DNA of 64,000 nt, taken from Xestospongia bergquistia. Its lineage: Eukaryota > Porifera > Demospongiae > Haplosclerida > Petrosiidae. The translations under genes were made by a program, and so were the position numbers. A model generated the notes under the pieces. It searched no databases and was not told where the DNA came from. It worked only from the letters and a program-made list of their open reading frames with translations. Location: NCBI GenBank assembly GCA_963965975.1, contig OZ014421.1, forward strand, positions 1,059,001 to 1,123,000. The letters are read 5' to 3'. Below are positions 1-62,447 of the stretch, in pieces (the first letter of the stretch is position 1; every line of letters begins with the position of its first letter).

Positions 1-2223
1 TAGTCCAGATCGATTGTGAAGACACTGTGGATGAGGAGATGTGATTTTAAAATGAACTGTTCCATCAATGCAGTAATCAAAGGGGCAGTGATGATAAATA
101 ATAAGACAATCTGAGTCATTTTGATAACCAATCCACTTATTACCATGTCTAGTTAACATTTGGGTATTAATATCACAAGTTATTGAAGACCTAATTAATT
201 CAGATCTGCAAACACATGTGTCATTGACTAATGGAAACCCAATTGGACAAGACTCAATGGTAACTTCAATGACTTTAGCCAAACGATTATATAAAGGATC
301 ACTGACTGTCCATTCAAGTGTAGCATAGATTCTTGTTGTATTCATTGAAGGGTTTGTTTTTAATGTGAAGGTTACGTTAGTACAAGTTGCATTTAGTCTA
401 TTGTTGTTAGTTTGAACTGTTGATGAATTATCTGATGATGTTAATTTTATAACACCCTCTGTTATGCCATCCTTTATACCAACTGTAGCTAGTGATACAT
501 TGACATCAATCCCAGGTATTACAGACTTATTCTTGTTCCTAACAGAGCAATTTGGTTGAAATGATTCACAAAAACACACTTGAACAGGGTCTGATGGCAC
601 TGCTGATGGACCAGATTGTTGAGGGTAGTAAAATAAATGATCAAAATTGAGTCTGTGTAAACAATCATTAATTTTACCTCCATACAATACATCACCAGAT
701 ATGTCAGCTGTATTGTTGACAAAATATAGCACTGTTTTAATATCATTAGAATAATGATAAGGAACAACTCTAAAGGAACAATCTGTAGCAATGTCTACAC
801 CAAGAACTTGTGATACAAAGATTCCTCCACCTGACACACTGGCATGATTATTTACAAATGATACGTTTGCATTTTGATTCAGTAATAACTGGGAGGATTC
901 GAATAAAGCAATACCTCCACCATAAATGCCTGAATTGCTTACAAATTTACTTCTTTTAGCAAATGTTAACCTGCTATTGACACCCATTAAACCAGTTGTA
1001 TTATGACTATTAATCTCAATTTGTTCAAAAAAAACATTATGAATGTTGATTAATAGCAAAGCAGTTTTGTATACATCAAACTTGTTGCTTACTTTATTGA
1101 AATGAAATAAAACGTTTGCAAAGAGAAAGCTACCTGTTGAAGCAACTCTAAAATCATAAAGAACCATTGCTGATGCAATATATGCGGTATTGTTGTATAT
1201 AGTGCAGTTATGAAATTCTGTACTACCACCTCCATTCGAAACAATGAACATTCCTCCACCATACAGAGGAGATATATTGTTGTATATAGTGGAATTACCA
1301 AACTCAATAGAACTATTTCCATATAATCTCATGAACAGTCCTCCTCCATAATGACCAGTATTGTTGTATATAGTACAGTTACCAATCTCTAACCTACCAT
1401 TTCCATGAGATATAATTTGCATCCCTCCTCCATACAAGACAGTATTGTGTGAAAAATGACAAGTTTTAATGGTTACATCAGCTCTGTTATTACTAAAATA
1501 CCAGAAATCCAAGCCATTTCCTAAGCCCAATGTAAAATTTGATTTCACAATGTTAACTCTGAAGAGTCCTTCATGCTTATTATCATAAACAATTAATGCA
1601 TTGCCTCCTGAAGACATAAGACCTCTATTATTAGCAAATGAGGAATTAATAATTAACACATCCAAAGTATTGACTAGACAGAGACCATAAACTGACCCAT
1701 TCTGGATTGATACCCATTCCAATGTGACTGTATCAGTGTCAAGAAAAAACAAACTAACATTGCTTTTGTAAGGGAATGCTTGGTTGCTGATAAATGTATA
1801 GAACTCACAGTTTGCTATTGTTAATGATTTCAATACAACATCATTGCTACTAGTAAATTGTATACCAGAAGGTCTGTTGTAATCACTACACCTTATTACT
1901 GAGGTAGATTGCATAACTGTTTCATGAAAGGCTTGTTCTATATGACCCAGTCCCTGTAGAGTTATATTACTTACACCACTGATCTCCAATGTACCTTGTA
2001 GAGTATGAGTTCCCTCTAGGAAATAGAAGATGGCATCATCAGTGAAGTAAGATGTATAATCAGCAGTATAGTATGAGAGGTTATGACAAGGTAGATCAGT
2101 ACTAGTAGAAGGACAGTCTTCTCCATTAGGAGCTGCAGAGACATAATACTCAGAAGCAGTAACATATCCACTGTAGATATACAGTATAACTGATGTTATA
2201 TAATAGATATGACACCTCCTCAT
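1..2223 (-). CDS. G1: beta-helix multi-pass membrane protein, 3' end outside window
   Basis: Reading codon by codon from the ATG at 2223 to the left edge gives 741 codons with no stop, so this is an open but incomplete gene. The product starts with the family signal peptide (MRRCHIYY..., hydrophobic to about residue 23), then an N-terminal cap with the paired CP/CH cysteines. Only about three full rungs of the NCTIYNNT..GGG type follow (residues about 264-348), the fewest in the array. After them come the conserved NNTADISGDVLYGG segment and the Cys-rich module. The frame leaves the window at LHNRSGL, just before the expected LCGQC motif and membrane helices. The start is fixed by alignment with the signal peptides of the paralogues. 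Function unknown; cell-surface location is inferred. Confidence 0.9.
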   Translation of the reverse strand, partial: MRRCHIYYITSVILYIYSGYVTASEYYVSAAPNGEDCPSTSTDLPCHNLSYYTADYTSYFTDDAIFYFLEGTHTLQGTLEISGVSNITLQGLGHIEQAFHETVMQSTSVIRCSDYNRPSGIQFTSSNDVVLKSLTIANCEFYTFISNQAFPYKSNVSLFFLDTDTVTLEWVSIQNGSVYGLCLVNTLDVLIINSSFANNRGLMSSGGNALIVYDNKHEGLFRVNIVKSNFTLGLGNGLDFWYFSNNRADVTIKTCHFSHNTVLYGGGMQIISHGNGRLEIGNCTIYNNTGHYGGGLFMRLYGNSSIEFGNSTIYNNISPLYGGGMFIVSNGGGSTEFHNCTIYNNTAYIASAMVLYDFRVASTGSFLFANVLFHFNKVSNKFDVYKTALLLINIHNVFFEQIEINSHNTTGLMGVNSRLTFAKRSKFVSNSGIYGGGIALFESSQLLLNQNANVSFVNNHASVSGGGIFVSQVLGVDIATDCSFRVVPYHYSNDIKTVLYFVNNTADISGDVLYGGKINDCLHRLNFDHLFYYPQQSGPSAVPSDPVQVCFCESFQPNCSVRNKNKSVIPGIDVNVSLATVGIKDGITEGVIKLTSSDNSSTVQTNNNRLNATCTNVTFTLKTNPSMNTTRIYATLEWTVSDPLYNRLAKVIEVTIESCPIGFPLVNDTCVCRSELIRSSITCDINTQMLTRHGNKWIGYQNDSDCLIIYHHCPFDYCIDGTVHFKITSPHPQCLHNRSGL
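1190..1435 (-). repeat. Rung-coding repeats of G1 (about 3 copies)
   Basis: Three in-frame units of roughly 84-90 bp encode GGG-rich rungs centred on NCTIYNN or NSTIYNN. The set is short compared with the other genes. A preceding TCHFSHN segment looks like a diverged rung. Confidence 0.8.
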
Positions 2224-2412
2224 GATATAGCAGGCTTTTCAACAGAATAATGAAAATAACGAAATACTATGGACTTTAGGACGATTTTCACTTTTTAGGA
2301 GATCTCGTAAATTCTATAGAATTTAACGAGAACCAAACAGACGTTGAGTAAAGTCGATGATGTCTTAAATAGGTTGTTACTGATATCGACTATCGTTTCA
2401 AAGCGCAAAATA

Positions 2413-3480: not shown

Positions 3481-3960
3481 CTATGAACTGTATGGTGGCA
3501 GCAACACATGCACTTTGATAGAGGTCCTTCAGGTAATGAATGGTATAGTAAGAAGGTAGAAAGTGTATGGTACAATACATAGAGTATGGTCCAACTTGTC
3601 AGAAGTCAAACAGTTATGGTACTAGCTACAATATCTTTCTCTCTTATACAAAACATGATATGAATTGTTTTCAAAACTTTTTATTTGACTAATAGTAGAT
3701 GCAGTATGAATAATGTCACATTTAAGTTATGGTACGTTGACGTTATTGTACAATATCTAAGAGGTTATTATATAAAATTGTTCCTGTTCTCACTGGCTCC
3801 ACTTACTGGAATATTCTGATAATATTGATCATGATGACTATTAAAAGGATTTACATTTGAATACTTTACAGTTTCAAATTGTTCATTAGTTACAATTTTT
3901 AGGCAATTTCTGTCTTATGTTTTTGACTACAAATTCTATTTATTCAAAAAAATGAATGTA
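3481..3960 (-). pseudogene. Decayed membrane-domain remnant 3' of G2
   Basis: About 3490-3575 matches the coding sequence around LTIPLFEGPLSKYMC of the intact genes (GGCAGCAACACATG, then GAGGTCCTTC and TATAGTAAGAAGGT), but it is interrupted and lacks an open frame. A short segment near 3778-3810 matches the next part of the same domain in the opposite orientation, so the remnant is rearranged. The distal part (3860-3990) matches sequence beside the remnants at 29.5 and 56.9 kb. Nothing here can be translated usefully. Confidence 0.6.
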
Positions 3961-4859: not shown

Positions 4860-5465
4860 CTAGTCATCTTGATCAAACAATATTGATTCTCGTTTCATAT
4901 CCATTGATACCACTGATGTTGATATTGATCTCCTTTCATCATTAGGTGATCCAGGATGTATTAAAGGAAGTTCCATATCATTAGAACTAGAAGATGGTGG
5001 AGGTTTCTTCAGTATCTCTTTGACCTTTGTAATTGGTTGTTGGCAATGAGACTTGAAGATACGATCCCAGACATTATAGAATATCAGACGATCCCAGACA
5101 TGATATAATATAATGCCACAAAAAACGATAAATGATAATAATACTAAAAAAAAACTTGACCAGTGTCCTTTTGAACTATTAATGTCATTTGAAGTTTCTG
5201 CATTCATATAAGCCATAAACGTGAGGTTAAGAATGAAAAATGTTTCCAAATAATCCAAAGGAATATGTCGATATATTCCCTTCAAAATGAGATACATGAA
5301 GACAATGATGATTAAAATAGATGTTAACAAATCTAAGCTTACAGTAGATTTAGTATCTAGAGACACTGTCAGTGCTAAAACAACACGAACTAGCAGTAAA
5401 CATCCAGTCCAAAAACGACGCTTGTCCTTATATGGACCTCCGTATGCATCAAAGAAAGGTTTCAT
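4860..5465 (-). CDS. G2 C-terminal part, out of frame with its N-terminal part
   Basis: These 201 codons encode the last membrane helices and the cytoplasmic tail of the family: FDAYGGPYKDK..FWTG, three or four hydrophobic segments, a proline/serine linker, and a tail ending ESILFDQDD. It continues the preceding reading frame after a frameshift. The upstream stop TGA and this ATG overlap as ATGA at 5462-5465. The segment is as well conserved as in intact paralogues, so the break looks recent. It probably is not translated on its own; stop-start reinitiation is conceivable but untested. Confidence 0.75.
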   Translation of the reverse strand: MKPFFDAYGGPYKDKRRFWTGCLLLVRVVLALTVSLDTKSTVSLDLLTSILIIIVFMYLILKGIYRHIPLDYLETFFILNLTFMAYMNAETSNDINSSKGHWSSFFLVLLSFIVFCGIILYHVWDRLIFYNVWDRIFKSHCQQPITKVKEILKKPPPSSSSNDMELPLIHPGSPNDERRSISTSVVSMDMKRESILFDQDD

Positions 5466-8400
5466 ATATGGCAGGAGTCCAAGTATTTTGATAGAGGTCC
5501 TTCAAATAATGGTATAGTAAGAAGATAGAAGGTGTATGGAATAATAAGTAAAATGAGTACAGCCAGTGAGAAAAGGAACAATGGTATGTGACAACCTTTT
5601 AGGTAGTGGACATTAGCATCAAAATACCACCTCAGCAATGTTTCATTTTTCTTTTCATCAGTACAAGGAATTTCAATGGAATAAAGGGCCTGGACAACAG
5701 TACGTATTAGTTTTGTATAAGAAAGAAGGATCATAGTTGCTATGACTGGAATTATTTGTCTTCCTACAAGTCTAACCATTCTGCTAGAATATCGTAACAA
5801 TATTATGATAAGTATTAGGAGAAGCCAAATATAGGCTGGAAAGACAAACTGTAGCCATGCTTTACTGCAAGAATTCATACCATGGAAGAAACATGTGTTA
5901 ATACCTAGGTCAAGATTGACCCAGGAAATGAACCAACTAAGAAATGGTATAGGACCTTTAGGAAAGAAGATGTGTTCATATATTTTGATAACATTAGCAT
6001 AGAATATAAGTCCATTGATTGTGCCAACAGACACTGTTAAATTTAAAGCAATGACGAAAGCTACCAGTGCTATACCAGCTAAAGCAAATAGAATGATAAG
6101 AGCTACGTTGTCATTAGTACATTGTCCACATTCATTGGAACCTAACATGAGACTGAGTCCTTCACTACATTGTCCACAGAGTATTCCATATCGATTATGA
6201 AGACATTGTTTGTTATGATAGCTAAGTGTGAAACTAACATTATTCTTATTACAGTAATCAAAGGGGCAGTTACGATAAATAATAAGACAGTTTGAATCAT
6301 TTTCATAACCAATCCACATATTACCATCTCTAGTTATAAGTAGACTTTTACTATCACAAGTTATTGGAGTTAAATGTAATTCAGATCTACAAATACAAGT
6401 ATCACTTACTAATGGATATCCATTAGGACAGGGCTCAATAGTAACTTCAATGACTTTGACATAAGGGTCATCATATAAATGTTCAAAGATTGAACTATTA
6501 AGTGTAGCATAGACTTGTGTTGTGCTCAATGAAGGGTTAGTTCTTAATGTGAAGGTTACATTAGTACAAATTGCATTTAGTCTATTATTGTCATATTGCA
6601 CAATGGATGAGTTATCTGATAAATTCAATTTTATCACACCCTCTGTTAAGGTTTCTTTTAGACCTACTGTAGCTAGTGATATGATGACATTAATTCCAGG
6701 TATTGCAAATATACTGATGTCTTTAACAGAGCAATTTGGTTTATGTGATTCACAAAAACAGACTTGAATAGGATCTGATGTCACTACTGATAGACCTGTC
6801 TGTTGAGGATAGTGAAATAGGTGATCAAAGTAAAGTGTGCTTGTACAATCATCAATTTTACCACCATATAGGACATCACCAGATATGTCAGCTGTATTGT
6901 TAACAAAATATAACACTGTTTTAGTATCATTAGGATAATGATGAGGAATAACTTTAAAGGTGCAATTAGAGACAGTATCTACATCAAGAATCTGTGATAC
7001 AAAGATTCCTCCACCTGACTTGCTGGCATGATTATTGAAAAATGATACATTTGCATTTTCTTTTATTAATAGTTGTGAAGATTCATATAAAGCAATACCT
7101 CCACCATAAGTACCTGAATTGTTTACAAACATGTTATGTCTATCAATTGTTATTAGACTATTTTCAGCAACTAAACCAGTTGTGTTGTGATTGCTAACAT
7201 CAATTTGTTCAAATGTAACATTAACGTTGATTAATACCACAGCAGACTTATATCTTTTTGGATATATTATTATTATATCAAGGTTATTAATTATTTCATT
7301 GGAAACTATTACAACATTTGTGAAATGAAAGTTACTTTGGGAAATTGATCGAACTGAATTGAGAACCAAACCTGATCCAAAGCGTGCAATATTGTTGTAT
7401 ATAGTGCAGTTGCTGAACTCATTGCTGCCGCCCTTTGCGTACAAATAAGTGGACAATCCTCCTCCATAATACTGAGCACTATTACGATATATAGTGCAGT
7501 TAATGAACGTAATATTACCATTGTCTGAGTATAAACTAACATACACTCCTCCACCACTATACTGAGCAGTATTGTTGTATATAGTACTGTTAAAAAAGTC
7601 AATACTAAGACTTCCTCTGAACGAACGAATTTGCACTCCTCCACCATTATCATATTGAGCAGTGTTGTTGTATATTTTGCAGTTACTAAACTCAATGCTG
7701 CCATTTCCATACGAACCAATGTCCACTCCTCCTCCATCATACCGTGCAGAATTGTTGAATATAGTGCAGTTACTAAACTCAATGCTGCCATTCCCATATG
7801 AATAATAGTCCACTCCCCCCCCTTCATACCATGCATTATTACTGTATATAGTGCAGTTACTAAACTTAATACTACCATTCCTATTTGAATAAATGTGCAC
7901 TCCTCCCGCACCGAATGCAATATTTTTATATAGAGTGCAACTAGTAAGCTCAATACTGCCATTCCCATATGAATAAATACCTAGTCCTCCTCCTCCATAC
8001 CGTGCAGTGTTGTTGAATACAGTACAGTTACTAAGCTCAATAATGCCATTCCCAGACGAAGAAATATCCATTCCTCCTCCATATCGTGCAGTATTGTTGA
8101 ATACAGTGCAGTTACTAAGCACAATACTGCCATTCCCATACGAATAAATGTCTAGTCCTCCTCCTCCATACCGTGCAGTGTTGTTGAATACAGTGCAGTT
8201 ACTAAGCACAATACTGCTATTCCCATACGAATAATAGTCCACACCTCCTCCATACCGTGCAGTGTTGTTGCATATAGTGCAGTTACTAAGCACAATACTG
8301 CCATTCCCATATGAATAATAGTCCACACCTCCTCCATACCATGCAGTATTGTTGCATATAATGCAGTTATTAAACTCAATATTACCACCTCCACGAAAAA

Positions 8401-9232
8401 CAATATCCACTCCTCCACCATATCGACCGCTATTGTTTAAGAACATACTATTTTCAACAATTACATTAGCTTCATTATCATAATCATACCACAAATACAT
8501 ACCATATCCTAAGCCCAGTGTGAAGTTTGATTTCAAAATTATAACGCTAGAGATTCTTTTAACCAGCTCATCATCATAGACAACTAATACATTGCCTGAA
8601 AACCTCTCACTACCTCCATTATTAGCAAATGAGGAATTATCAATTAGCACATCATAAACATTAACTAAAACGAGTCCATTACCTGAACTATTTTGGACTG
8701 ATACACATTCTAATGTGACACTATTAATGCCCACAAAAAACAAGCTAACTCTATGACGTAGATACCAGTAATACCCACAAGGATTGTGAGGGACTTCTTG
8801 TTGACTGATTTGATTATCGAACCGACAGTTTGCTATTGTTAATAACTTCAATACAACATCACTACTATTACTAAATCGCATACCAGTTCTGTTCTTATCA
8901 CTACAACTTATTACTGAAGTATATTGTATAACTGTCTCATGAAAGCCTTGTTCTATATGACCCAGACCCTGTAAAGTTATATTACTTACATTGCTGATAT
9001 TTAATATACCTTGTAGAGTATGAGTTCCCTCTAGGAAGTAGAAAATGGCATCATCAGTGAAGTAAGACAAATAATCATCAATATAGTAGGAGAGGTTGTG
9101 ACAAGGTAGGTCATTTGAAGGGCAAGATTCTTCATTAGTAGTTGCAGAGACATAATACTCAGAAGCAGTAACATATCCACTGTAGATATACAGTATAACT
9201 GATGTTATATAATAGATATGACAGCAGCTCAT
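5462..9232 (-). CDS. G2: beta-helix membrane protein, truncated by frameshift
   Basis: 1256 residues: signal peptide (about 1-23), cap, about 12 rungs (277-626), post-helix region with NNTADISGDVLYGG, a Cys-rich module (CPNGYPL..CICRSEL, then LCGQCSEGLSLMLGS), and membrane helices from about residue 1042. The frame ends abnormally after LTIPLFEGPLSKY in DSCHI plus stop, whereas paralogues continue with another four helices and the tail. Aligning the DNA with G4 shows about 13 bp missing near 5470-5485. Either the product is a shorter membrane protein with about five helices or the locus is a young pseudogene. The start follows from the family signal peptide. Confidence 0.85.
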   Translation of the reverse strand: MSCCHIYYITSVILYIYSGYVTASEYYVSATTNEESCPSNDLPCHNLSYYIDDYLSYFTDDAIFYFLEGTHTLQGILNISNVSNITLQGLGHIEQGFHETVIQYTSVISCSDKNRTGMRFSNSSDVVLKLLTIANCRFDNQISQQEVPHNPCGYYWYLRHRVSLFFVGINSVTLECVSVQNSSGNGLVLVNVYDVLIDNSSFANNGGSERFSGNVLVVYDDELVKRISSVIILKSNFTLGLGYGMYLWYDYDNEANVIVENSMFLNNSGRYGGGVDIVFRGGGNIEFNNCIICNNTAWYGGGVDYYSYGNGSIVLSNCTICNNTARYGGGVDYYSYGNSSIVLSNCTVFNNTARYGGGGLDIYSYGNGSIVLSNCTVFNNTARYGGGMDISSSGNGIIELSNCTVFNNTARYGGGGLGIYSYGNGSIELTSCTLYKNIAFGAGGVHIYSNRNGSIKFSNCTIYSNNAWYEGGGVDYYSYGNGSIEFSNCTIFNNSARYDGGGVDIGSYGNGSIEFSNCKIYNNTAQYDNGGGVQIRSFRGSLSIDFFNSTIYNNTAQYSGGGVYVSLYSDNGNITFINCTIYRNSAQYYGGGLSTYLYAKGGSNEFSNCTIYNNIARFGSGLVLNSVRSISQSNFHFTNVVIVSNEIINNLDIIIIYPKRYKSAVVLINVNVTFEQIDVSNHNTTGLVAENSLITIDRHNMFVNNSGTYGGGIALYESSQLLIKENANVSFFNNHASKSGGGIFVSQILDVDTVSNCTFKVIPHHYPNDTKTVLYFVNNTADISGDVLYGGKIDDCTSTLYFDHLFHYPQQTGLSVVTSDPIQVCFCESHKPNCSVKDISIFAIPGINVIISLATVGLKETLTEGVIKLNLSDNSSIVQYDNNRLNAICTNVTFTLRTNPSLSTTQVYATLNSSIFEHLYDDPYVKVIEVTIEPCPNGYPLVSDTCICRSELHLTPITCDSKSLLITRDGNMWIGYENDSNCLIIYRNCPFDYCNKNNVSFTLSYHNKQCLHNRYGILCGQCSEGLSLMLGSNECGQCTNDNVALIILFALAGIALVAFVIALNLTVSVGTINGLIFYANVIKIYEHIFFPKGPIPFLSWFISWVNLDLGINTCFFHGMNSCSKAWLQFVFPAYIWLLLILIIILLRYSSRMVRLVGRQIIPVIATMILLSYTKLIRTVVQALYSIEIPCTDEKKNETLLRWYFDANVHYLKGCHIPLFLFSLAVLILLIIPYTFYLLTIPLFEGPLSKYLDSCHI
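7355..8400 (-). repeat. Rung-coding tandem repeats of G2 (about 12)
   Basis: Units of about 84-90 bp encode rungs of the form NGSI.LSNCTVFNNTARYGGG. Several adjacent copies between about 7960 and 8350 are nearly identical, which suggests recent local duplication or conversion inside the gene. Confidence 0.85.
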
Positions 9233-9450: not shown

Positions 9451-10690
9451 ACGGTACGTAATTAATGTTTTTCTTATCAAAAGATAACTTAACAATCTTC
9501 TCAGAAGTAAGAGCAACATAATTATATTGATAGAACATTAATACATGTCACTACTGTATGTTTTATTGTATATATGAGTATGACGCTGGAAAGAATTTTG
9601 TGTGTATATACCTGACGACGAAAGACTAAGCTTCCGCTTCTTTTACGTATGACTAATAAATAACACTATATGATATTATATAGTAATAATATATTTTGAA
9701 TCTAAAATTTTATAATAGGAAAGTTGTAATGCTTTGACTGTAGTATTCTTTAACTGTATTTAAATATTGTTAACCAAATAATAGATGCTGGAAACTATTT
9801 GTAATATATATATACTTAAAAAATCTATCACTAGATCTAGTATTGTCAGAATTAAGGTGACCAATATACCAGGAGCACTCCCAAATAACTCTGTTAAGAA
9901 ACTTTACAAAAACGTATCTAATATATCAATTGTTAAATTAAATCTTTAAAAAAATTTTGGTTGCATCAATCAATATACGAAGTACACTGAAATGCGTTCA
10001 CAGATTCAAAATACAGTGAAGTGTATGGAGGACTCCATAGTAACAGCTTTGGCCTAGATTGGTTACAAATGATCTACATGAACAATCAATTCTAAAAAAT
10101 ATTAGTAATCAAAACATTATGTTGTATATTTTTGCATGAAATAACTTTACTAAGTTTGTTAAATACAACCATCATAACCATATATTGATTAAATCAACCA
10201 ATTAATTTTTATAATGCGACCATTAAACTAGACTATACATAGCAGTGATATCATATTGATATTAATTTTGATAGTTAAACATTAAAGGCATACTTTGTAG
10301 TATTCTTAATTGTGATTTGATATCTAATGTATACCAGCCACTTTTGTATTTACTATTGGAGAAAACTTATGTAGCTACTTTCTAAATGAAGAATTTATTA
10401 ATCATGTAGTCTTTACACCCACCACTAATTGTACTGTGATCACATTAACACAAGCAGTCTCCCGTCATAACTATATCTACTATTGGAGAAAACTTTATAA
10501 CTAAATCTCACGAACTAGTTATTAAAGAAATTATTGAACAGAAATTATTGTACTGTAATATTACTGTTGCCTGTTAGTTTGTTTTGTGCTTTTTGTGTCA
10601 GGTGTCTGTTGTGATAATAAGTCATATGGCAAATAGAGAAGAGGTGACTGGGACATTACTTGTAGTTGTTAAATCTGTCACTAGATGTAT
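9451..10690. other. Upstream flank of G2 and AT-rich spacer
   Basis: The proximal part matches the distal upstream flank of G3, including an AGACTAAGCTTCCGC block near 9626. Beyond about 9700 it consists of AT-rich spacer modules repeated elsewhere in the window, such as AACATTAACAGTTT-type blocks. No coding sequence seen. Confidence 0.5.
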
Positions 10691-11101
10691 GTAAATATTA
10701 ACTGTTTATTATAATAGAAATGATAACTTTATAATTAATATACTTACTAGCTAGCAATAACATAGTAAATGGAACATTGTATAAAATAAATGTCAAGACA
10801 ACACAGTTATCTTGTTAATGTTACTACACCACTATTATATATAAGATATAACAATTATATGAATAAAATGTAATCAATAAAATTAAGGTTGTCTGAATTA
10901 ACACTAGACTGTTTTGTCATATCAATCTGTATCAATAATCTACACCTCAACAATTAATGCAGATATCAATAAGAGGACATCAATAAGTCTCCTTGACACA
11001 CCCACACATTGTAATTAAAAATAACATCGCATAAAATAATTGTTAAGACAACACAGTTATCTTGTTAATGTTACTACACCACTATTATATATAAGATATA
11101 A

Positions 11102-11221
11102 TTTAATGTGATCATAATATGATTCATAAACATGTATGATTAATAGGGAGTGTTCAGAATATATGATTAACAATCTTTCCGTTTTGTTTTAAAAGAATAA
11201 TTAAATGTTAAACTTAAAAAA

Positions 11222-11259
<38 letters not shown>

Positions 11260-11336
11260 TATAATATACATATCAAATGTTCCATCAACATATATATGGC
11301 CCTTGCTTTTGAGAGGAATATTATGATCACATTAAA
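11102..11336. repeat. Inverted TA-bearing segment with 17-bp inverted ends
   Basis: TTTAATGTGATCATAAT at 11102-11118 is the exact reverse complement of 11320-11336. The enclosed segment, including its TA tract, is the reverse complement of about 12026-12232. It therefore is a flipped copy of the segment that lies in direct orientation in the two neighbouring repeat units. Confidence 0.8.
11225..11253. repeat. (TA)n microsatellite
   Basis: About 14 TA units inside the inverted segment. Confidence 0.9.
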
Positions 11337-12079
11337 AGATTGTTTTTGGTGAGTAGGATAAGGGGTGACCTGTACATGTTTGTAATTGTCAAGTGATCTA
11401 TCACTAGATCTACTTAAACATTAATTGTTTATTATAATAGAAATGATAACTTTATAATTAATATACTTACTATCTAACAATAACACAGTAAATGGAACAT
11501 TGCATAAAATAATTGTTAAGACAACACAGTTATCTTGTTAATGTTACTACACCACTATTATATATAAGATATAACAATTATATGAATAAAATGTAATCAA
11601 TAAAATTAAGGTTGTCTGAATTAACACTAGACTGTTTTGTCATATCAATCTATATCAATAATCTACACCTCAACAATTAATGCAGACATCAATAAGAGGA
11701 CATCAATAAGTCTCCTTGACACACCCACACATTGTAATTAAAAATAACATACACTATGATAATGAACTTAGTTTATAAATTAATAAAAATAAATAATGTT
11801 TCAAATGACAGTGATTGCTTTTGTTAAAATGAATCTTTAGATGTTTAGTAAAATAGAATTATTTTGAATAGACTTGAGACAATCTGATAAGGTGTTCTAA
11901 TTTTTTGAATCACTACACTATACCTGAACAATTTATTATAAATCTTTGTCCTATGAACCAATCTCTAGTGGTAACATCATCTTGCTACCTGTTTATGGTT
12001 ATTTTTCAGAACCTAAAATATTTCTCTCAAAAGCAAGGGCCATATATATGTTGATGGAACATTTGATATATATATTATA

Positions 12080-12084
<5 letters not shown>

Positions 12085-12126
<42 letters not shown>
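12085..12126. repeat. (TA)n microsatellite
   Basis: About 20 TA units in repeat unit 1, with one interruption. Confidence 0.9.
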
Positions 12127-12129
<3 letters not shown>

Positions 12130-13193
12130 TTTTTTAAGTTTAACATTTAATTATTCTTTTAAACCAAAATGGAAAGATTGTTAATCATATATTCTGAACA
12201 CTCCCTATTAATCATACATGTTTATGAATCATATTATGATCACATTAAAAGATTGTTTTTGTCATGTGTCTGTTGTTATAAGCTGTCACATAGTGAATGG
12301 AGTAAGAGGTGATCTGTACACTAATTGTAATTGTCAAGTAATGTATGTAAACATTAACAGTTTTTTATAATAGAAATGATAACTTTATAATTAATATACT
12401 TACTAGCTAACAATAACACTGTAAATAGAACATTGTATAAAATAATTGTTGAGACATGGTGAGTAGGATAAGAGGTGACCTGTACATGTTTGTAATTGTC
12501 AAGTGATCTATCACTAGATGTACTTAAACATTAACTGTTTATTATAATAGAAATGATAACTTTATAATTAATATACTTACCACCTAAAAATAACACAGTA
12601 AATGGAACATTGCATAAAATAATTGTTAAGACAACACAGTTATCTTGTTAATGTTACTACACTACTATTATATATAAGATATAACAATTATATGAATAAA
12701 ATGTAATCAATTAAATTAAGGTTGTCTGAATTAACACTAGACTGCTTTGTCATATCAATCTGTATCAATAATCTACACCTCAACAATTAATGCAGACATC
12801 AATAAGAGGACATCAATAAGTCTCCTTGACACACCCACACATTGTAATTAAAAATAACATACACTATGATAATGAACTTGATTTATAAATTAATAAAAAT
12901 AAATAATATTTCAAATGACAGTGATTGCTTTTGTTAAAATGAATCTTTAGATGTTTAGTAAAATAGAATTATTTTGAATAGACTTGAAACAATCTGATAA
13001 GGTGTTGTAAATTTTTGAATCACTACACTATACCTGAACAATTTATTATAAATCTTTGTCCTATGAACCAATCTCTAGTGGTAACATCATCTTGCTACCT
13101 GTTTATGGTTATTTTTCAGAACCTAAAATATTCCTCTCAAAAGCAAGGGCCATATATATGTTGATGGAACATTTGATATATATATTATATATA

Positions 13194-13197
<4 letters not shown>

Positions 13198-13274
<77 letters not shown>
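13198..13274. repeat. (TA)n microsatellite
   Basis: About 38 TA units in repeat unit 2. It is the expanded counterpart of the tract at 12085-12126. Confidence 0.95.
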
Positions 13275-13277
<3 letters not shown>

Positions 13278-34391: not shown

Positions 34392-34563
34392 GACGGCAGC
34401 GTGTTTAACAGCAGGCGAACAAAATACTATGGACTTGTCGCTTGTGTGAAAATGCACCTTTTAGAAGACCTGAAATTTGTAACTTTTATTGATGTTTCCA
34501 AAGATATAAAGAGAACTTAACTGAAAGTCTATTGATCTCCGAAATTGATCGTTAATAGACTAC

Positions 34564-45365: not shown

Positions 45366-45412
<47 letters not shown>
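45366..45412. repeat. (CA)n microsatellite
   Basis: About 23 AC units abutting the palindrome at its left end. Confidence 0.95.
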
Positions 45413-45415
<3 letters not shown>

Positions 45416-45704: not shown

Positions 45705-45711
<7 letters not shown>

Positions 45712-48614: not shown

Positions 48615-51600
48615 CTAGTCATCTTGATCAAGCAGTATTGATTCTCGTTTCATTTGTACTGACACCACTGACATCGAAATTGATCTCTTTTCACTATAAG
48701 GCGATTCTGGATGTATGAAAGGAAGTTCCATATTATTAGAAGTAGAAGATGGTGGAGGTTTTTTGAATATCATTTTCATTTTTGTAATTGTTTGTTCCCA
48801 ATGAGACTTGAAGACACGATCCCAGACATTATAGAACATCAGACGATCCCACACATGATAAAATATAATACCACAGAATACAATAAATGATAATAATACT
48901 AAAACAAAACTTGACCATTGTCTTTTTTGATAATTATTGTTGGTAGAATTTTCTGCATTCATATAAACCATAAACATAAGATTAAGAATGAAAAATTTTT
49001 CTAGATAATCCAAAAGAATATGTCGATATACTCTCTTCAAAATAAAATACATGAAGATAATGATGATCAAACTAGATGTTAACACATCATAGCTTGCAGT
49101 AGAGTTAGTATTTAGTGAAACAACCAGCGCTAAGATAACACGAAGTAGCAGTAAAAAGCCAGTCCAAAAACGACAATTGTCCTTATATGGACCTCCATAT
49201 GCATCAAAGAAACGTTTCACATTTGTTAACAACTTTTGGAAGTAGCACATATATTTTGATAAAGGTCCTTCAAATAATGGTATAGTAAGAAGGTAGAAGG
49301 TGTATGGAATAATAAGTAAAACAAGCACAGCCAGTGAGAATAGAAACAATGACAGATGACAACCTTTTAGATAGTGGACATTAGCATCAAAATACCACCT
49401 CCACGATGAGACAGTATTCTTATTATCAATACATGGAATTTTGATAAAATAAAGGGCCTGGACAACAGTGCGTATTAGTTTTGTATAAGAGAGAAGGATC
49501 AAAGTTGCTATGACTGGAATTATTTGTCTTCCAACAAGTCGAACAACTTTGCTTGAACGTTGTAACAATATTATGATAAGAATTAGGAGAAACCAAATAT
49601 AGGCTGGAAAGACAAACTGAAGCCATGCCTTTATGCAAGAATCCATACCATGGTAGAAACAAGTGTTGATACCTAGATCAAGATTGACCCAGGAAATAAA
49701 CCAGCTAAGAAATGGTATTGGAGCATCAGGAAAGAAGACATGTTCGTATAGTTTGACAACATTAGCATAGAATATAAGTCCATTGATTGTACCCACAGAC
49801 ACAGTTAAGTTCAAAATAATAATAAAAGCTATGAGTGCTATACCAGCTAAAGCAAATGGAATGATAAGAGCTATGTAGTTATTAGTACATTGTTCACATT
49901 GATTGGAACCTAACGTAAGACTGAATCCTTTAGAACATTGTCCACAGAGTACTCCATCTCGATTATGAAGACATTGTTTGCTATGATATTTAAGTGTAAA
50001 ACTAATATTACTGTTATTACAATAATCAAAGGGGCAGTTAGGATAAACAATAAGACAGTTTGAATCATTTTCATAACCAATCCACATATCACCAATTCTT
50101 GTTATAATAAGAGTGTTATTATCACAAGTTATTGAATCTGAATTTAATTCAAACCTACATACACAAGTATCATTTACTAATGGATATCCATTAGGACAGG
50201 GCTCAATAGTAACTTCAATGATATTAGCATAAGGGTCAGAAAAAGGCTTTCTGATTGAACTTTCAAGTGTAGCATAGACTTGAGTTGTGTTTAATGACGG
50301 ATTTATTATTACCTTAAAAGTTATGTCAGTACATCTTACATTTATTTTATTGTTGTTATACTCCACAATGGATGAGTTATCTGATGAAGTTAATTTTATT
50401 GCACCCTTTGTTAAGCTATTTTTTAGACCAACTGTAGCTAGTGATATGTTGACATCAATTCCAGGTATTGCAATTTTACTGATGTCTTTGATAGAACAAT
50501 TTGGTTTATGTGATTCACAAAAACAGACTTGAATAGGATCTGATGTCACTACTGATAAACCTGTCTGTTTAGGATAGTAAAATAGGTGATCAAAGTAAAG
50601 TGTGCTTGTACAATCATCAATTTTACCACCATATAGGACATCACCAGATATGTCAGCTGTATTGTTAGCAAAATATAACACTGTTTTATTATCATTAGGA
50701 TCATGAAAAGGAATAACTTTAAAGGAACAATTAGAGGCAGTATCTACACCAAGAACTTGTGATACAAAGATTCCTCCACCTGACACACTGGCATGATTAT
50801 TAATAAATGATATGTTTGCATTCTGATTTATTATTAGTTGGGAAGATTCATATAAAGCAATACCTCCACCATAATTGCCTGAATTTTTTAAAAATTTGTT
50901 ACATCTATTAAATGTTATTAGACTATTGACACCAACTAAACCAGTTGTGTCATGACTAATAACATGAATTTCATCAAATGTGACATTAGCAAGATTAATT
51001 AATAATACAGCAGATGTATAACTTTTCTGATTTGCATCAACATTATTGATTAATTTATTGAAACGTATTACAACGTTTGTGAAGTGAAAGCTACTTGTGG
51101 AAGTTGATTGAAAAGAACGGAGACACAAGCCTGATCCAAACCCTGCAGAATTGTTTGATATAGTGCAGTTACTAAACTCAAACTCATTACCACTTTCTGA
51201 GTGAATGTCCACTCCTCCTCCAATATACCGAGCATTATTGTTGTATATAGTGCAGTTAAAAAACTTCATACTAACACTTCCTGTATACAAATGACTATGC
51301 ACTCCTCCACCACCACTAAATTGAGAAGTGTTGTTGTATATTTTGCAGTTACTAAAGTCTATACTGCCATTTCCATACAAATAAAAGCTCATTCCTCCTC
51401 CATAATATCGTGCAGTATTGTTGTATATAGTGCAGTTAAAAATCTCAGTACTAACATGTCCTGACAAGGAACGAATATACACTCCTCCGCTATGATCATA
51501 TTGAGCAGTATTGTTGTGTATTCTACAATTATTGAACTCAATACTACCATTCCCATATGTATAAGTAATCCCTACTCCTCCTCCATCATCACGTGCAGTA

Positions 51601-52907
51601 TTGTGGGATATAATGCAATCTCTAAACTCAATACTGCCATTCCTTATTGTATAAATAATCCATACTCCTCCTCCATCGTCCCGTGCAGTATTGTGGGATA
51701 TATTGCAATTACTAAACTCAATACTACAATTCCCATTAGACTTAAAGTACACTCCACCTCCATCATATATTGCAGTATTGTTATATATGATGCAGTTACT
51801 AAACTCAATAATTCCATTCCCATTTGTATAAATGCCCACTCCTCCTCCATCATACCATGCAGTATTGTCATATATAGTGCAGTTACTAAACTCAATACTG
51901 CAATTCCCATTAGACTTAAAGTACACTCCTCCTCCGACATTAATTGCAGTATTATTATATATGGTGCAATTGCTAAACTTGATACTTCCATTCCCATTTG
52001 TATAAATGTCTACTCCTCCTCCATCATCCCTTGCAGTATTGTCATATATAGTGCAGTTACTAAACTCAATACTACCACCTCCATGTAAGCTAATATTCAT
52101 TCCTCCTCCAGACCAAGCATTATTGTATAAATATATACTATTTTCAATGATTACATCAGCTTCATTATCATTACTATACCACAAATACATACCATATCCT
52201 AACCCCAGCGAAAAATTTGATTTCAAAATATTAACTCTAGAGAGCTTTTTAAGCTGGTCATCATAGACAATTAATGTATTGCCTGAAGCTCCATTATTAG
52301 TAAATGAAGAATTATCAATTAACACATTAAAGGCGTTAACTAGAACGAGTCCATGACCTGAACTATTTTGGACTGATATATATTCTAATATGACACTATT
52401 AATGTCAACAAAGAACAAGCTAACTCTATGATATTGATACCAGTAAGGCCGACAGTGATTGCGAGGGATTTCTTTATAACTGATATAATTATCAAAGCCA
52501 CAGTTTGCTATTGTTAATGATTTAATTGTAATATTTCCACTACTACTAAATCGTATTCCAGTTCCGTCACTATCACTACACATTATTACTGAGGTGGATT
52601 GCATAACAGTCTCATGGAAGCCTTGTTCTATATCACCCAGTCCCTGTAGAGTTATATTACTTACATTATTGATATTTAATATACCTTGTAGAGTATGAGT
52701 TCCATTTAGGAAGTAGAAGATGGTATCATCAGTGAAGTAAAACGAGTAATCAGCAAGATAGTAGGAGAGGTTGTAACAAGAAGTATTAGCAGAAGGACAA
52801 TCTTCACCATTAGAAGCTGCAGAGACATAATACTCAGAAGCAGTAACACACGTACTGTAGATATACAGTATAACTGATGTTATATAATAGATATGACACC
52901 AGTTCAT
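48615..52907 (-). CDS. G6: intact beta-helix multi-pass membrane protein
   Basis: 1430 residues from MNWCHIYY. Signal peptide, cap, about 11 rungs (272-599), post-helix region with NNTADISGDVLYGG, Cys-rich module (LCGQCSKGFSLTLGSNQC), about nine membrane helices from about residue 1009, and the tail ending ESILLDQDD. It is the closest paralogue of G5 in the N-terminal and tail regions and in flanking DNA, but has roughly half the rungs. Its Cys-rich and first-helix segment reads closer to G3 (NRDGVLCGQCSKGFSLTLGS), which suggests conversion between units. An upstream in-frame ATG 20 codons before was rejected as start for the same reason as in G5. Confidence 0.93.
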   Translation of the reverse strand: MNWCHIYYITSVILYIYSTCVTASEYYVSAASNGEDCPSANTSCYNLSYYLADYSFYFTDDTIFYFLNGTHTLQGILNINNVSNITLQGLGDIEQGFHETVMQSTSVIMCSDSDGTGIRFSSSGNITIKSLTIANCGFDNYISYKEIPRNHCRPYWYQYHRVSLFFVDINSVILEYISVQNSSGHGLVLVNAFNVLIDNSSFTNNGASGNTLIVYDDQLKKLSRVNILKSNFSLGLGYGMYLWYSNDNEADVIIENSIYLYNNAWSGGGMNISLHGGGSIEFSNCTIYDNTARDDGGGVDIYTNGNGSIKFSNCTIYNNTAINVGGGVYFKSNGNCSIEFSNCTIYDNTAWYDGGGVGIYTNGNGIIEFSNCIIYNNTAIYDGGGVYFKSNGNCSIEFSNCNISHNTARDDGGGVWIIYTIRNGSIEFRDCIISHNTARDDGGGVGITYTYGNGSIEFNNCRIHNNTAQYDHSGGVYIRSLSGHVSTEIFNCTIYNNTARYYGGGMSFYLYGNGSIDFSNCKIYNNTSQFSGGGGVHSHLYTGSVSMKFFNCTIYNNNARYIGGGVDIHSESGNEFEFSNCTISNNSAGFGSGLCLRSFQSTSTSSFHFTNVVIRFNKLINNVDANQKSYTSAVLLINLANVTFDEIHVISHDTTGLVGVNSLITFNRCNKFLKNSGNYGGGIALYESSQLIINQNANISFINNHASVSGGGIFVSQVLGVDTASNCSFKVIPFHDPNDNKTVLYFANNTADISGDVLYGGKIDDCTSTLYFDHLFYYPKQTGLSVVTSDPIQVCFCESHKPNCSIKDISKIAIPGIDVNISLATVGLKNSLTKGAIKLTSSDNSSIVEYNNNKINVRCTDITFKVIINPSLNTTQVYATLESSIRKPFSDPYANIIEVTIEPCPNGYPLVNDTCVCRFELNSDSITCDNNTLIITRIGDMWIGYENDSNCLIVYPNCPFDYCNNSNISFTLKYHSKQCLHNRDGVLCGQCSKGFSLTLGSNQCEQCTNNYIALIIPFALAGIALIAFIIILNLTVSVGTINGLIFYANVVKLYEHVFFPDAPIPFLSWFISWVNLDLGINTCFYHGMDSCIKAWLQFVFPAYIWFLLILIIILLQRSSKVVRLVGRQIIPVIATLILLSYTKLIRTVVQALYFIKIPCIDNKNTVSSWRWYFDANVHYLKGCHLSLFLFSLAVLVLLIIPYTFYLLTIPLFEGPLSKYMCYFQKLLTNVKRFFDAYGGPYKDNCRFWTGFLLLLRVILALVVSLNTNSTASYDVLTSSLIIIIFMYFILKRVYRHILLDYLEKFFILNLMFMVYMNAENSTNNNYQKRQWSSFVLVLLSFIVFCGIIFYHVWDRLMFYNVWDRVFKSHWEQTITKMKMIFKKPPPSSTSNNMELPFIHPESPYSEKRSISMSVVSVQMKRESILLDQDD
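51110..52090 (-). repeat. Rung-coding tandem repeats of G6 (about 11)
   Basis: About 11 units averaging 89 bp. A two-rung block (DNTA..DGGGV.IYTNG then GGGVYFKSNGNCSIEFSNC) is duplicated between about 51700 and 51960. Confidence 0.85.
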
Positions 52908-57791: not shown

Positions 57792-60700
57792 CTAGTCATC
57801 TTGATCAAACAGTATTGCTTCTCGTTCCATTTCTACTGACAGCACAGACATTGAAATAGATCTTCTTTCATCATCAGATGATTCTGGATGTATTAATGGA
57901 AGTTCCATATCATTACAAGTAGAAGGTGGTGGAGGTTTCTTGAACATTCTTTTGACTTTTGCGATTTGTTGCTGCCAATGAGACCTGAAGACACGATCAC
58001 ACACTTTAAAGAACATCAGACGATCCCAGACATGATATAATATAATACCACAGAATACAATAAATGTTAATAATACTGAAACAAAACTTGACCATTGTCT
58101 TTTTGAATCATTATTCTTGTTGGAAGTTTCTGAATTCATATAAGTCATAAACATGAGGTTAAGAATAAAAAATTTTTCTAGATATTCCAAAAGAATATGT
58201 CGATATATTCCCTTCAAAATGAAATACATTAGGATAATGATGATTAAAATAGATGCTAACACATCATAGCTTGCAATAGAGTTAATATTTAGTGAAACAA
58301 CCAGTGCTAAGATAACACGAAGTAGCAGTAAAAATCCAGTCCAAAAACGACACTTGTCCTTATATGGACCTCCATATGCATCAAAGAAAGGTTTCACATT
58401 TGTTGACAACTTTTGGCAAAAGCACATGTATTTTGATAAAGGTCCTTCAAATAATGGTATAGTAAGAAGGTAGAAGGAGTATGGAATAATAAGTAAAATG
58501 AGTACAGCAGATGAGAACAAAAACAATGGTAGATGACAACCTTCTAGATAGTGGACGTTAGCATCGAAATACCACCTCAATAATGATATGGTATTATTCT
58601 TATCATCATCAATGCATGGAATTTCAACCCAATAAAGGGCCTGGACAACAGTGCGTATTAGTTTAGTATAGGAGAAAAGGATCATAGTTGCTATGACTGG
58701 AATTATTTGTCTTCCAACAAGTCGAACCACTTTGGTAGAATATCGTAACAATATTATGATGACTAATAGAATCAACCAAATGTAGACTGGAAAGACAAAC
58801 TGAAGCCATGCTTTACTACAAGAATCCATAGTATGATAGAAACATGTGTTGATACCTAGATCAAGATTGACCCAAGAAATGAACCAGCTAAGAAATGGTA
58901 TTGGACCATTAGGAAAGAAGACGTGTTCGTACATTTTGACAACATTAGCATAGAATATAAGTCCATTGATTGTACCCACAGACACTGTTAAGTTTAAAAC
59001 CATGACAAAAGCAACTAGTGCTATACCAGCGAAAGCAAATGGAATGATAAGAGCTATGTGGTCATTAGTACAATTCCCACATTGATTGGAACCTAACATG
59101 AGACTGAGATTTTTAGAACATTGTCCACAGAGTATGCCTGATCGACCATGTAGACATTGTTTATTATGATAGTTAAGTGTAAAACTAATATTACTGTTAT
59201 TACAATAATCAAAGGGGCAATTAGGATAAACAATAAGACAGTTTGAATCATTTTCATAACCAATCCACATATCACCAATTCTTGTTATAATAAGAGTGTT
59301 ATTATCACAAGTTATTGAATCTGAATTTAATTCAAACCTACATACACAAGTATCATTTACTAATGGATATCCATTAGGACAGGGCTCAATAGTAACTTCA
59401 AAGATATTAGCATAAGGGTCAGATAAAGGTTTTCTGATTGAAGTTTCAAGTGTAGCATAGACTTGAGTTGTGTTCAGTGAAGGATTTGTTATTATCTTAA
59501 AAGTTATGTTAGTACAGTTTGCATTTAATCTATTGTTGTTATACTGCACAATGGATGTGTTATCTGATGAAGTTAATTTTATCGCACCCTTTGTTAAGCT
59601 ATCTTTTAGACCAACTGTAGCTAGTGGGATATTGACATCGATTCCAGGTATTGCAAATATACTGATGTTTGTAATAGAGCAATTAGGCTTATTTAATTCA
59701 CAAAAACATGCTTGAATAGGATCTGATGTCACTACTGATAGACCTGTCTGTTGAGGATAGTAAAATAGGTGATCAAAGTAAAGTGTCCTTGTACAATCAT
59801 CAATTTTACCACCATATAAGACATCACCAGATATGTCAGCTGTATTGTTTACAAAATATAATAGTGTTTTAATATCATTAGGATCATGATAAGGAATAAC
59901 TTTAAAAGAACATTCATTAGTAATATCTAAACCAAGAACTTGTGATACAAAGATTCCTCCACCTGACTCACTGGCATGATTATTAATAAATGATATGTTT
60001 GCATTCTGATTTATTATTAGTTGGGAAGATTCATATAAAGCAATACCACCACCATTAATGCCTGAATTGTTTACAAACATGTTATCACCATTAAATTTTA
60101 TTAGACTATTTTCAGCAACTAAACCAGTTGAATTATGACTAATAACTTGAATTTCGTCTAATGTGACATTAGTAACATTGATTAATACTACAGCAGATTT
60201 ATATCTATTCTGATATGCATCGATGTTATTCATTACTTTATTGAAAAGAATTGCAACATTTGTGAAGTGAAAGCTACTTGTGGAAGTTGATTGAAAAGAA
60301 TGCAGAACCAAACCTGATCCAAGGTATGCACTATTGTTGGATATATTGCAATTACTGAACACATTGCTGTTACTTTTTACATTCAAATAAGTGGACACTC
60401 CTCCTCCATAATACTTAGCATTATTACAATTTATGGCACAGTTAATAAATGTAATATTGCTACTTTCTGAGTACAAATGAATATCAACTCCTCCTCCATT
60501 ATACTGAGCAGTGTTGTTGTATATAGTGCACTTAAAAAACTCAATACTAACACTTTCTCTATACGAACGAATATATATTCCTCCACCACTACTATCTTGA
60601 GAAGTGTTGTTGTATACTTTGCAATTACTAAAATCTATACTGCCATTCCCATTTGAAGTAATGTACACTCCTCCTCCATTATACCATGCAGTATTGTTGT

Positions 60701-62447
60701 ATAAAGCACAGTCATTAAACTCAATGCTGCCATTCCCATACGAATAAAAGTAAACTCCTCCTCCCCAATACTGTGCAGTATTGTCGTATATATTGCAATT
60801 AAAAAACTCAATTGTAACACTTCTTGTAAAGGAATGGATAAATATTCCTCCACCATCATCATATTGAGCAGTATTGTTGTATATTTTACAGTTACTAAAG
60901 TCAATATTGCCATTCCCATACCCATATGTATAAACACCTACTCCTCCTCCATCATCTCGTGCAGTATTGTCACATATGACGCAATTACTAAATTCAATAC
61001 TGTAATCCCCATACCAAAAAAAGTCCACTCCACCTCCATCATACCATGCAATGTTGCTATATATAGTACAGTTACTAAAATCAATACTTCCATTCCCATT
61101 CATATAAATACCCACTCCTCCACCATCATACTGTGCAGTATTGTCATATATAATACATTTACTAAACTCAATACTGCAATTTCCAAACATAATAAAATTC
61201 ACTCCTCCTCCCCAATACCTTGCAGTATTGTTGTATATAGTGCAGTTATTAAACTCAATACTTCCATTCCCATTCCTATAAATACTCACTCCTCCTCCAC
61301 GATTCTGTGCAGTATTGTCATATATAATACATTTACTAAACTTAATACTGCAATTCCCATACATATTAAAATACACTCCTCCTCCATTGTCCTGTGCAGT
61401 ATTGTTGTATATAGTGCAGCTGAAAAACTCAATATTAGTACTTTCAGTAAATGAACGAGTATATACTCCTCCACCATCATCATTTAGAGCAGTATTGTTG
61501 TATATATTGCAGTTATTAAAGTAAATACTGGCATTCCCATATGTATAAATGTCCACTCCGCCTCCATCATTCTGTGCAGTATTGTTGCATATGATGCAAT
61601 CATCAAACTCAATACTACCACCTCCATGCAAGCTAATATTCACTCCTCCTCCAGACCAAGCATTATTGTATGAATATATGCTATTTTCAATGATTACATC
61701 AGCTTCATTATCATCACCATACCACAAAGACATACCATATCCTAACCCCAGTGTAAAATTTGATTTCAAAATAATAACTCTAGAGAGTCTTTTAGGCTGG
61801 GCATCATAGACTATCAATGCAATGCCTGAAGCTCCATTATTAGCAAATGAGGAATTATCAATTAACACATCATAAGTATTAACCAGAACAAGTCCATGAC
61901 CTGAACTATTTTGGACTGATACATGTTCTAATGTGACATTGCTGATGTTAACAAAAAACAAGCTAACTCTATGATGTTGATACCTGTAAGGCCCACAGTG
62001 ATTGCTAGGGATTTCTTCGTAACTGATATAATTATCAAAGCCACAGTTTGCTATTGTTAATGATTTAATTGTAATATTTCTGCTACTACTAAATCGTATA
62101 CCAGTTCTGTTGCTATCACTACACATTATGACTGAGGTGGATTGCATAACAGTCTCATGGAAGCCTTGTTCTATATGATCCTGTCCCTGTAGAGTTATAT
62201 TACTAACATTGCTGATATTTAATATACCTTGTAAACTATGAGTTTCATTTAGGAAGTAGAAAATGGTATCATCAGTGAAGTAAAACGAATAATCAGCAAC
62301 ATAGTAGGAGAGGTTGTAACAAGAAGTGTTATCAGAAGGACAATCTTCTCCATTAGGAGCTGCAGAGACATAATACTCAGAAGCAGTAACATATCCACTG
62401 TAGATATACAGTATAACTGATGTTATATAATAGATATGACACCTCAT
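57792..62447 (-). CDS. G7: intact beta-helix multi-pass membrane protein
   Basis: 1551 residues from MRCHIYYITSV. Signal peptide, cap with CPS..SCYNLSYY, about 15 rungs (274-716), post-helix segment, Cys-rich module (LCGQCSKNLSLMLGSNQC), about nine membrane helices from about residue 1129 and the tail ending AILFDQDD. An ATG five codons upstream is in frame but is not conserved, so 62447 is preferred. The coding sequence is intact, yet its upstream DNA does not match that of its paralogues from about 10 bp above the ATG. Its expression may therefore differ or be lost. Confidence 0.92.
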   Translation of the reverse strand: MRCHIYYITSVILYIYSGYVTASEYYVSAAPNGEDCPSDNTSCYNLSYYVADYSFYFTDDTIFYFLNETHSLQGILNISNVSNITLQGQDHIEQGFHETVMQSTSVIMCSDSNRTGIRFSSSRNITIKSLTIANCGFDNYISYEEIPSNHCGPYRYQHHRVSLFFVNISNVTLEHVSVQNSSGHGLVLVNTYDVLIDNSSFANNGASGIALIVYDAQPKRLSRVIILKSNFTLGLGYGMSLWYGDDNEADVIIENSIYSYNNAWSGGGVNISLHGGGSIEFDDCIICNNTAQNDGGGVDIYTYGNASIYFNNCNIYNNTALNDDGGGVYTRSFTESTNIEFFSCTIYNNTAQDNGGGVYFNMYGNCSIKFSKCIIYDNTAQNRGGGVSIYRNGNGSIEFNNCTIYNNTARYWGGGVNFIMFGNCSIEFSKCIIYDNTAQYDGGGVGIYMNGNGSIDFSNCTIYSNIAWYDGGGVDFFWYGDYSIEFSNCVICDNTARDDGGGVGVYTYGYGNGNIDFSNCKIYNNTAQYDDGGGIFIHSFTRSVTIEFFNCNIYDNTAQYWGGGVYFYSYGNGSIEFNDCALYNNTAWYNGGGVYITSNGNGSIDFSNCKVYNNTSQDSSGGGIYIRSYRESVSIEFFKCTIYNNTAQYNGGGVDIHLYSESSNITFINCAINCNNAKYYGGGVSTYLNVKSNSNVFSNCNISNNSAYLGSGLVLHSFQSTSTSSFHFTNVAILFNKVMNNIDAYQNRYKSAVVLINVTNVTLDEIQVISHNSTGLVAENSLIKFNGDNMFVNNSGINGGGIALYESSQLIINQNANISFINNHASESGGGIFVSQVLGLDITNECSFKVIPYHDPNDIKTLLYFVNNTADISGDVLYGGKIDDCTRTLYFDHLFYYPQQTGLSVVTSDPIQACFCELNKPNCSITNISIFAIPGIDVNIPLATVGLKDSLTKGAIKLTSSDNTSIVQYNNNRLNANCTNITFKIITNPSLNTTQVYATLETSIRKPLSDPYANIFEVTIEPCPNGYPLVNDTCVCRFELNSDSITCDNNTLIITRIGDMWIGYENDSNCLIVYPNCPFDYCNNSNISFTLNYHNKQCLHGRSGILCGQCSKNLSLMLGSNQCGNCTNDHIALIIPFAFAGIALVAFVMVLNLTVSVGTINGLIFYANVVKMYEHVFFPNGPIPFLSWFISWVNLDLGINTCFYHTMDSCSKAWLQFVFPVYIWLILLVIIILLRYSTKVVRLVGRQIIPVIATMILFSYTKLIRTVVQALYWVEIPCIDDDKNNTISLLRWYFDANVHYLEGCHLPLFLFSSAVLILLIIPYSFYLLTIPLFEGPLSKYMCFCQKLSTNVKPFFDAYGGPYKDKCRFWTGFLLLLRVILALVVSLNINSIASYDVLASILIIIILMYFILKGIYRHILLEYLEKFFILNLMFMTYMNSETSNKNNDSKRQWSSFVSVLLTFIVFCGIILYHVWDRLMFFKVCDRVFRSHWQQQIAKVKRMFKKPPPPSTCNDMELPLIHPESSDDERRSISMSVLSVEMEREAILFDQDD
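60300..61625 (-). repeat. Rung-coding tandem repeats of G7 (about 15)
   Basis: About 15 units averaging 88 bp. The SKCIIYDNTAQ rung appears twice with its neighbour (SKCIIYDN then NNCTIYNN or SNCTIYSN), pointing to an internal two-rung duplication. Confidence 0.85.

Follow-up and report, generated by a model that had tools for sequence, protein, structure and literature searches.

Large diversifying receptor families are known on scaffolds of immunoglobulin (Ig) domains, leucine-rich repeats (LRR) or NACHT-LRR architectures. By fold, the closest relatives of the proteins considered here are the right-handed beta-helix (pectin-lyase-like) proteins, among them alginate epimerases, polysaccharide lyases, phage tailspikes and the adhesin PfbA. 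We analysed a window of 64,000 nucleotides from the sponge Xestospongia bergquistia (contig OZ014421.1, here C11, bases 1,059,001-1,123,000; the genome searched comprises 146 Mb in 21 contigs), in which seven loci encode proteins of one common plan: from N to C terminus, a signal peptide, an N-terminal cap (N-cap, ~255-270 residues), a block of repeated rungs, a C-terminal cap (C-cap), a Cys-rich collar, a polytopic membrane part and a conserved tail that terminates in about MKRESILFDQDD. Unlike the pectin-lyase-like proteins, they carry no lyase or hydrolase family over cut-off, and their rungs are near copies of one another, variable in number and fused to a polytopic membrane domain. Three features are newly recognised: the end rungs are mostly common across genes while the middle rungs expand; near-identical gene copies differ by three rungs; and two outward residues of the first strand, strand A, have a replacement rate of about 1.3-2.1 times the silent one.

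An iterated rung profile assigns 3, 12, 21, 6, 20, 11 and 15 rungs to genes 1 to 7, exactly the approximate counts given by a first-pass annotation of this DNA. The rungs are ~29 residues long, lie in a helix rich in N-glycosylation sequons, and score 25-59 bits each (88 rungs in all); since a control set of 180 reversed or shuffled proteins produced 6 matches above 3 bits, none above 10 and a maximum of 4.9, chance is excluded as their source. Tandem Repeats Finder independently detected units of 84-90 bp and their multiples. All on the minus strand, the blocks of genes 2 (7382-8419), 3 (19309-21141, the most homogeneous in the window), 4 (33066-33596), 5 (41886-43655) and 7 (60327-61652) are supported by both programs, that of gene 1 (1183-1431, residues 265-347) by the rung profile, and that of gene 6 (51144-52109) by the profile and a structure model.

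That model of the gene 6 rung block is a parallel beta-helix with a predicted local distance difference test score (pLDDT) of 82-97 by blocks of ten, mostly at least 88; as predicted, it has three strands per coil and right-handed coils stacked on one another, the hallmarks of a right-handed parallel beta-helix, in agreement with the solenoid that the annotation had proposed. Pfam Beta_helix (PF13229) scored 63-158 bits, against a cut-off of 25.9, in all five genes scanned. A Foldseek search with a 1016-residue ectodomain model, its low-confidence ends included, found no match below 0.001 in the PDB, a second comparison of the same model gave a high Z, and predicted viral structures yielded four matches below 0.001; the best of these, a right-handed beta-helix protein of Tupanvirus, is read as sharing the fold only. 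The ectodomain profile matched no PDB sequence at E <= 1. With respect to catalysis, only Beta_helix and Chlam_PMP appeared at E <= 0.001 when five genes were searched against Pfam for lyase, epimerase or glycoside hydrolase families, no catalytic family was found in the N-terminal 613 amino acids (aa) of gene 3 at E <= 10, and the NCBIfam polygalacturonase PglB matched gene 1 weakly (E 0.058; 12.1 bits against a cut-off of 600).

Comparison of individual rungs indicates how their number changes. The first rung of each of the seven window genes has its nearest counterpart in another gene's first rung; for 19 of 20 rungs among the last three, the nearest rung likewise lies in another gene, and 13 of the 20 match it in distance from the end. 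Middle rungs are nearest to a rung of their own gene in 38 of 61 cases, the other 23 not. This pattern implies that the ends are mostly inherited while the middle expands. The middle rungs of gene 3 are 90% identical to one another in DNA and 79-84% identical to those of other genes. Elsewhere in the family, locus L051 has 29 rungs with a four-rung period, and two neighbours on C11, L059 (129900-135400) and L060 (149500-154700), have identical membrane DNA and differ in length by 267 nt, or three rungs. This pair is also a mosaic: all 47 mismatches of the coding sequence fall in its first 1948 nt, and the remaining ~2.4 kb of 3' coding DNA has none; the 36 replacement and 11 silent changes of the 5' part (nonsynonymous to synonymous proportions, pN/pS, 0.87) give by themselves no sign of selection. 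L045, with 4 rungs (one weak), and L051 are mutual nearest neighbours by N-cap among 21 intact genes, and their membrane parts are 90.5% identical. Nearest neighbours by N-cap and by membrane part agree in 10 of the 21, and exchange of modules between genes is modestly supported by these comparisons. The correlation between rung-number difference and membrane identity (Spearman -0.17) was weak and drawn from non-independent pairs, and was set aside.

Substitution patterns differ among the parts of the protein. The membrane part has the lowest ratio of nonsynonymous to synonymous rates (dN/dS) of three regions compared, with medians of 0.41 for six window sequences (15 pairs) and 0.44 for 23 sequences (253 pairs), the latter set taking in both broken window genes; in the same two sets the N-cap stands at 0.46 and 0.64 and the C-cap at 0.61 and 0.54. 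Rungs as a whole have pN/pS of 0.62 when compared within genes (77 disjoint nearest pairs) and of 0.65 when compared across genes (109 pairs). Their GGG residues are nearly invariant in replacement terms (0.04-0.05), and the core is constrained (0.23-0.35; about 0.2-0.6 when a reanalysis with mutation models is included). The outward pair of strand A, positions 5 and 7, reaches 1.31 (1.06-1.65) and 1.53 (1.31-1.79), and 1.36-2.14 with lower bounds of at least 1.10 under four models of AT-biased mutation, with or without the broken genes. As read from these sequences, there is strong evidence for a special face on strand A and moderate evidence for positive selection on its outward residues. 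The substitution excess in the rungs, named as a test by the first-pass annotation, comes out in its favour, but narrowly: rungs exceed the membrane part, but the caps are similar and only the strand A pair passes 1. Its broader contrast between a constant membrane domain and a variable ectodomain is supported by the sequences.

All seven loci lie on the minus strand, as annotated, in AT-rich sequence. Five are intact: gene 3 (16777-21939, 1720 aa), gene 5 (39357-44453, 1698 aa from ATG), gene 6 (48615-52907, 1430 aa from ATG), gene 7 (57792-62447, 1551 aa from ATG) and gene 1 when read past the window edge. The ectodomain part of gene 1 (signal peptide, N-cap, 3 rungs and C-cap) occupies 1-2223, and its membrane domain and tail lie at C11:1057699-1059225, the complete gene (L055) being one open frame. 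Genes 2 (4860-9232; frames 5462-9232 and 4860-5465) and 4 (30478-34391; frames 31317-34457 and 30478-31320) are broken in the membrane part. The view that all seven are alike and single-exon is therefore upheld for the intact copies, but genes 2 and 4 are split and gene 1 lies partly off the window. Every intact copy of the family is one open frame; instead, matches to Wnt (three loci, 9 pieces in the genome search) and many to cysteine proteases fall in several exon-like pieces, some proteases excepted. None of 14 prokaryote control genomes gave a Wnt match, and Wnt genes are specific to animals, which marks the genome as that of an animal; its size, the AT-rich window and dense kinase matches are in keeping with a demosponge such as Amphimedon.

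The Cys-rich module, membrane domain and tail span 16780-18336 in gene 3 (519 aa, with a presumed cytoplasmic tail), 39360-40916 in gene 5, 48618-50174 in gene 6 and 57795-59357 in gene 7, and hydropathy peaks indicate that the membrane part is polytopic. By sequence comparison this domain matches no known family convincingly. Neither gene 3 nor gene 7 had a G-protein-coupled receptor family (7tm, GAIN/GPS) among the matches listed for its membrane part at E <= 10, a setting at which most matches above 0.1 are lost to HMMER filters, nor did any of 21 members at E <= 1; a very distant relation is conceivable. Pfam families of TRP, polycystin and ion-transport proteins were matched neither by genes 3 and 7 nor by the 21 members, the structure model being unusable (pLDDT 36). 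DUF7630 (15 of 21 members, best E 0.0011; gene 3 at 17.2 bits against a cut-off of 27) and RAMP4 (7 of 21, best E 0.0085) are not claimed. PDB sequences gave two matches, the best at E 1.2, which is chance level, and one pattern-based scan each of bacterial and archaeal genomes and of viral contigs produced 38 and 19 candidate stretches, none confirmed as relatives of the domain.

The array was annotated as having seven members; it is larger, with 39 loci (37 N-caps; 38 loci on the minus strand) at 1.04-1.39 Mb of contig C11, or 37 if the two membrane matches left unpaired are parts of neighbouring loci. Loci were defined by pairing N-cap and membrane matches by strand and distance, and since the genome searches score the best candidates only, their counts are lower bounds. 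At least 144 N-caps (145 matches, less one tiny second fragment) and at least 111 distinct membrane matches (83, and 28 from a further search) resolve into at least 159 loci, comprising 96 with both ends, 48 with an N-cap alone and 15 with a membrane match alone; because some of the 15 may join N-cap loci across long gaps, 144 is the safe lower bound. Contig C11 carries 104 of the 159. Estimated from spacer length, the median among the 96 paired loci is 5 rungs and 20 of them reach at least 10, some of these figures being underestimates because the C-cap is shorter in one subclass; in its range of lengths the window is therefore out of the ordinary. Frames of at least 1000 aa are kept in 72 of 83 scored loci, and three near-identical copies, one scoring slightly lower, stand at an exact spacing of 6096 bp. 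Dense protein-kinase matches at C5:1.16-1.48 Mb and C14:0.26-0.29 Mb mark another expanded family in this genome.

The spacers of the window hold relics of the membrane domain between genes 3 and 4 (29132-29439, minus strand) and between genes 5 and 6 (47811-48236, minus strand), and a weak one on the plus strand at 3586-3798. Other spacer sequences include repeated units of ~1.1 kb, 92-98% identical, between genes 2 and 3 (10636-13947); a 0.8-kb element present at 15425-16218 and 27554-28346, whose 94% identity is above the usual spacer similarity; and a 170-nt inverted repeat (45412-45581), 96% self-complementary and perhaps a small transposon. Between genes 3 and 4, a plus-strand frame of 225 aa (25647-26324) without a Pfam match has 107 matches, many of them weak, over many contigs; the best others are 97% identical within 964-aa frames, so it is probably a fragment of an inserted, dispersed mobile element. 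Long antisense frames on the plus strand facing rung blocks (20551-21162, 51492-52088, 60834-61454) are probably by-products of the repeat unit.

We regard it as about an even chance that these loci belong to a large diversifying surface-recognition family of the sponge, evolving by birth and death and built on a beta-helix ectodomain. Recognition is favoured because mostly fixed ends, a length-variable and sequon-rich helix, a fast-changing face and a conserved membrane part occur together in a large tandem family that both decays and renews itself. The rung block would form a right-handed beta-helix outside the cell, closed by conserved first and usually conserved last rungs and standing on the Cys-rich collar, the polytopic membrane domain and the conserved tail. 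In-frame duplication and deletion of rung blocks change its length, and tandem duplication multiplies whole genes, which probably also exchange parts. One face of the solenoid, made up by the outward residues of strand A, would be changing under positive selection; our inference is that a variable ligand, for example a glycan or protein of microbes or a partner molecule carried by other cells, is bound there, and that the constant membrane domain and tail may pass the signal on. It seems unlikely, although conceivable, that the array is specifically a germline-diversifying system of self/nonself or microbe discrimination, in which the beta-helix would serve as an extendable ladder with gain and loss of blocks and a selected face, and the orphan polytopic domain would signal.

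Several observations weigh against the recognition reading. Whole rungs are below 1 and, while above the membrane part, no higher than the caps (0.46-0.64); the inward residues 4, 6 and 8 of strand A are themselves fairly free (0.75-0.77), and the outward residues of strands B and C lie at 0.66-0.80, or about neutral (0.75-1.19) under the mutation models. The strand A ratio comes from positions 5 and 7 grouped post hoc, when the per-position table had already been seen, with outward facing assigned by alternation and hydrophobicity rather than by coordinates, and from nearest-pair counting, which is crude beside a likelihood test; for either position singly the interval spans 1 in some settings. 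As to length, the last rungs of genes 1 and 6 depart from the usual set, and the middle rungs of genes 5 and 7 (0.74 and 0.73 within the gene) are no more alike than between genes, so that recent homogenisation is clear in gene 3 (0.90) only and the expansions of genes 5 and 7 look older. Most members have ~5 rungs, so length variation is not universal; the membrane tree contradicts only two of five well-supported N-cap splits; of 28 loci that could be read completely or almost so, 7 are broken; and a membrane-domain model built from eight window sequences was discarded at pLDDT 36.

Much of this would suit proteins that are structural adhesion or glycocalyx spacers, whose helix holds a terminal site off the membrane or anchors cells to matrix while the number of rungs drifts freely. 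Mostly conserved ends around a freely varying middle, dense sequons, a conserved core, strands B and C whose outward residues evolve at about the neutral rate or more slowly, and rung numbers with a median of 5 and a long tail all fit such spacers; free drift in length explains most observations except the strand A excess, and as it predicts neither more replacement on one face nor so large a family (144 loci or more), we consider this account rather unlikely. The broken loci, the membrane-domain relics in spacers and the 6096-bp copies would also fit mostly neutral birth and death, in which tandem duplication, unequal exchange and decay swell the family and each copy does little; strong conservation of core and GGG residues, the membrane dN/dS of 0.41-0.44 and the long frames kept in most scored loci make it improbable. 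A polytopic membrane part with the lowest dN/dS of the regions compared could instead be the working part of a sensory or mechanical channel or receptor, tethered to a beta-helix that acts as a ruler or spring of varied length. With no Pfam channel or receptor family among the weak membrane matches, an unusable membrane model and selection on strand A left unexplained, this last account appears very improbable.

A literature search, with subscription papers and preprints outside its coverage, brought up no description that we recognised as this family. The available part of a study of SECOM (PMC3386278) lists a sponge proteome cluster of 18 segments, 2 of them with a pectin-lyase-like domain, which may or may not be this family, and the word "pectin" is absent from the searched portions of PMC5041008 and PMC4302439. 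The polymorphic membrane proteins of Chlamydia resemble the window proteins in their NNxAxxGGG-type repeat logic: POMP_repeat (TIGR01376) scored 17.6, 15.2 and 14.8 bits against a cut-off of 15 in three ectodomains, passing it in two with one stretch each, in the C-cap, and Chlam_PMP of Pfam passed its cut-off in two of five genes. In contrast to those proteins, the window proteins come from animal genes, begin with a signal peptide and include a polytopic membrane domain; their C-terminal part is hydrophobic and polytopic, with no Pfam match to an autotransporter beta-barrel.

The SpTransformer (Sp185/333) genes of sea urchins, in the accessible part of their description, are likewise clustered, carry repeats in the coding exon and may be subject to local genomic instability; a role in the immune response is reported there, where for the window family it may only be supposed. 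SpTransformer proteins are not known to have a beta-helix or a polytopic domain. The allorecognition loci of Hydractinia (Alr) similarly form clusters of diversifying surface proteins, and have Ig-like ectodomains, single-pass anchors and known polymorphism; the data for the window family come from one assembly. Beside the families built on Ig, LRR or NACHT-LRR scaffolds, the present one would offer, in a sponge, concrete candidate genes for telling self, symbiont and food apart, as well as a natural series for the growth of a solenoid by block duplication between fixed caps: its scaffold is a predicted beta-helix, and the number of turns is itself the variable.
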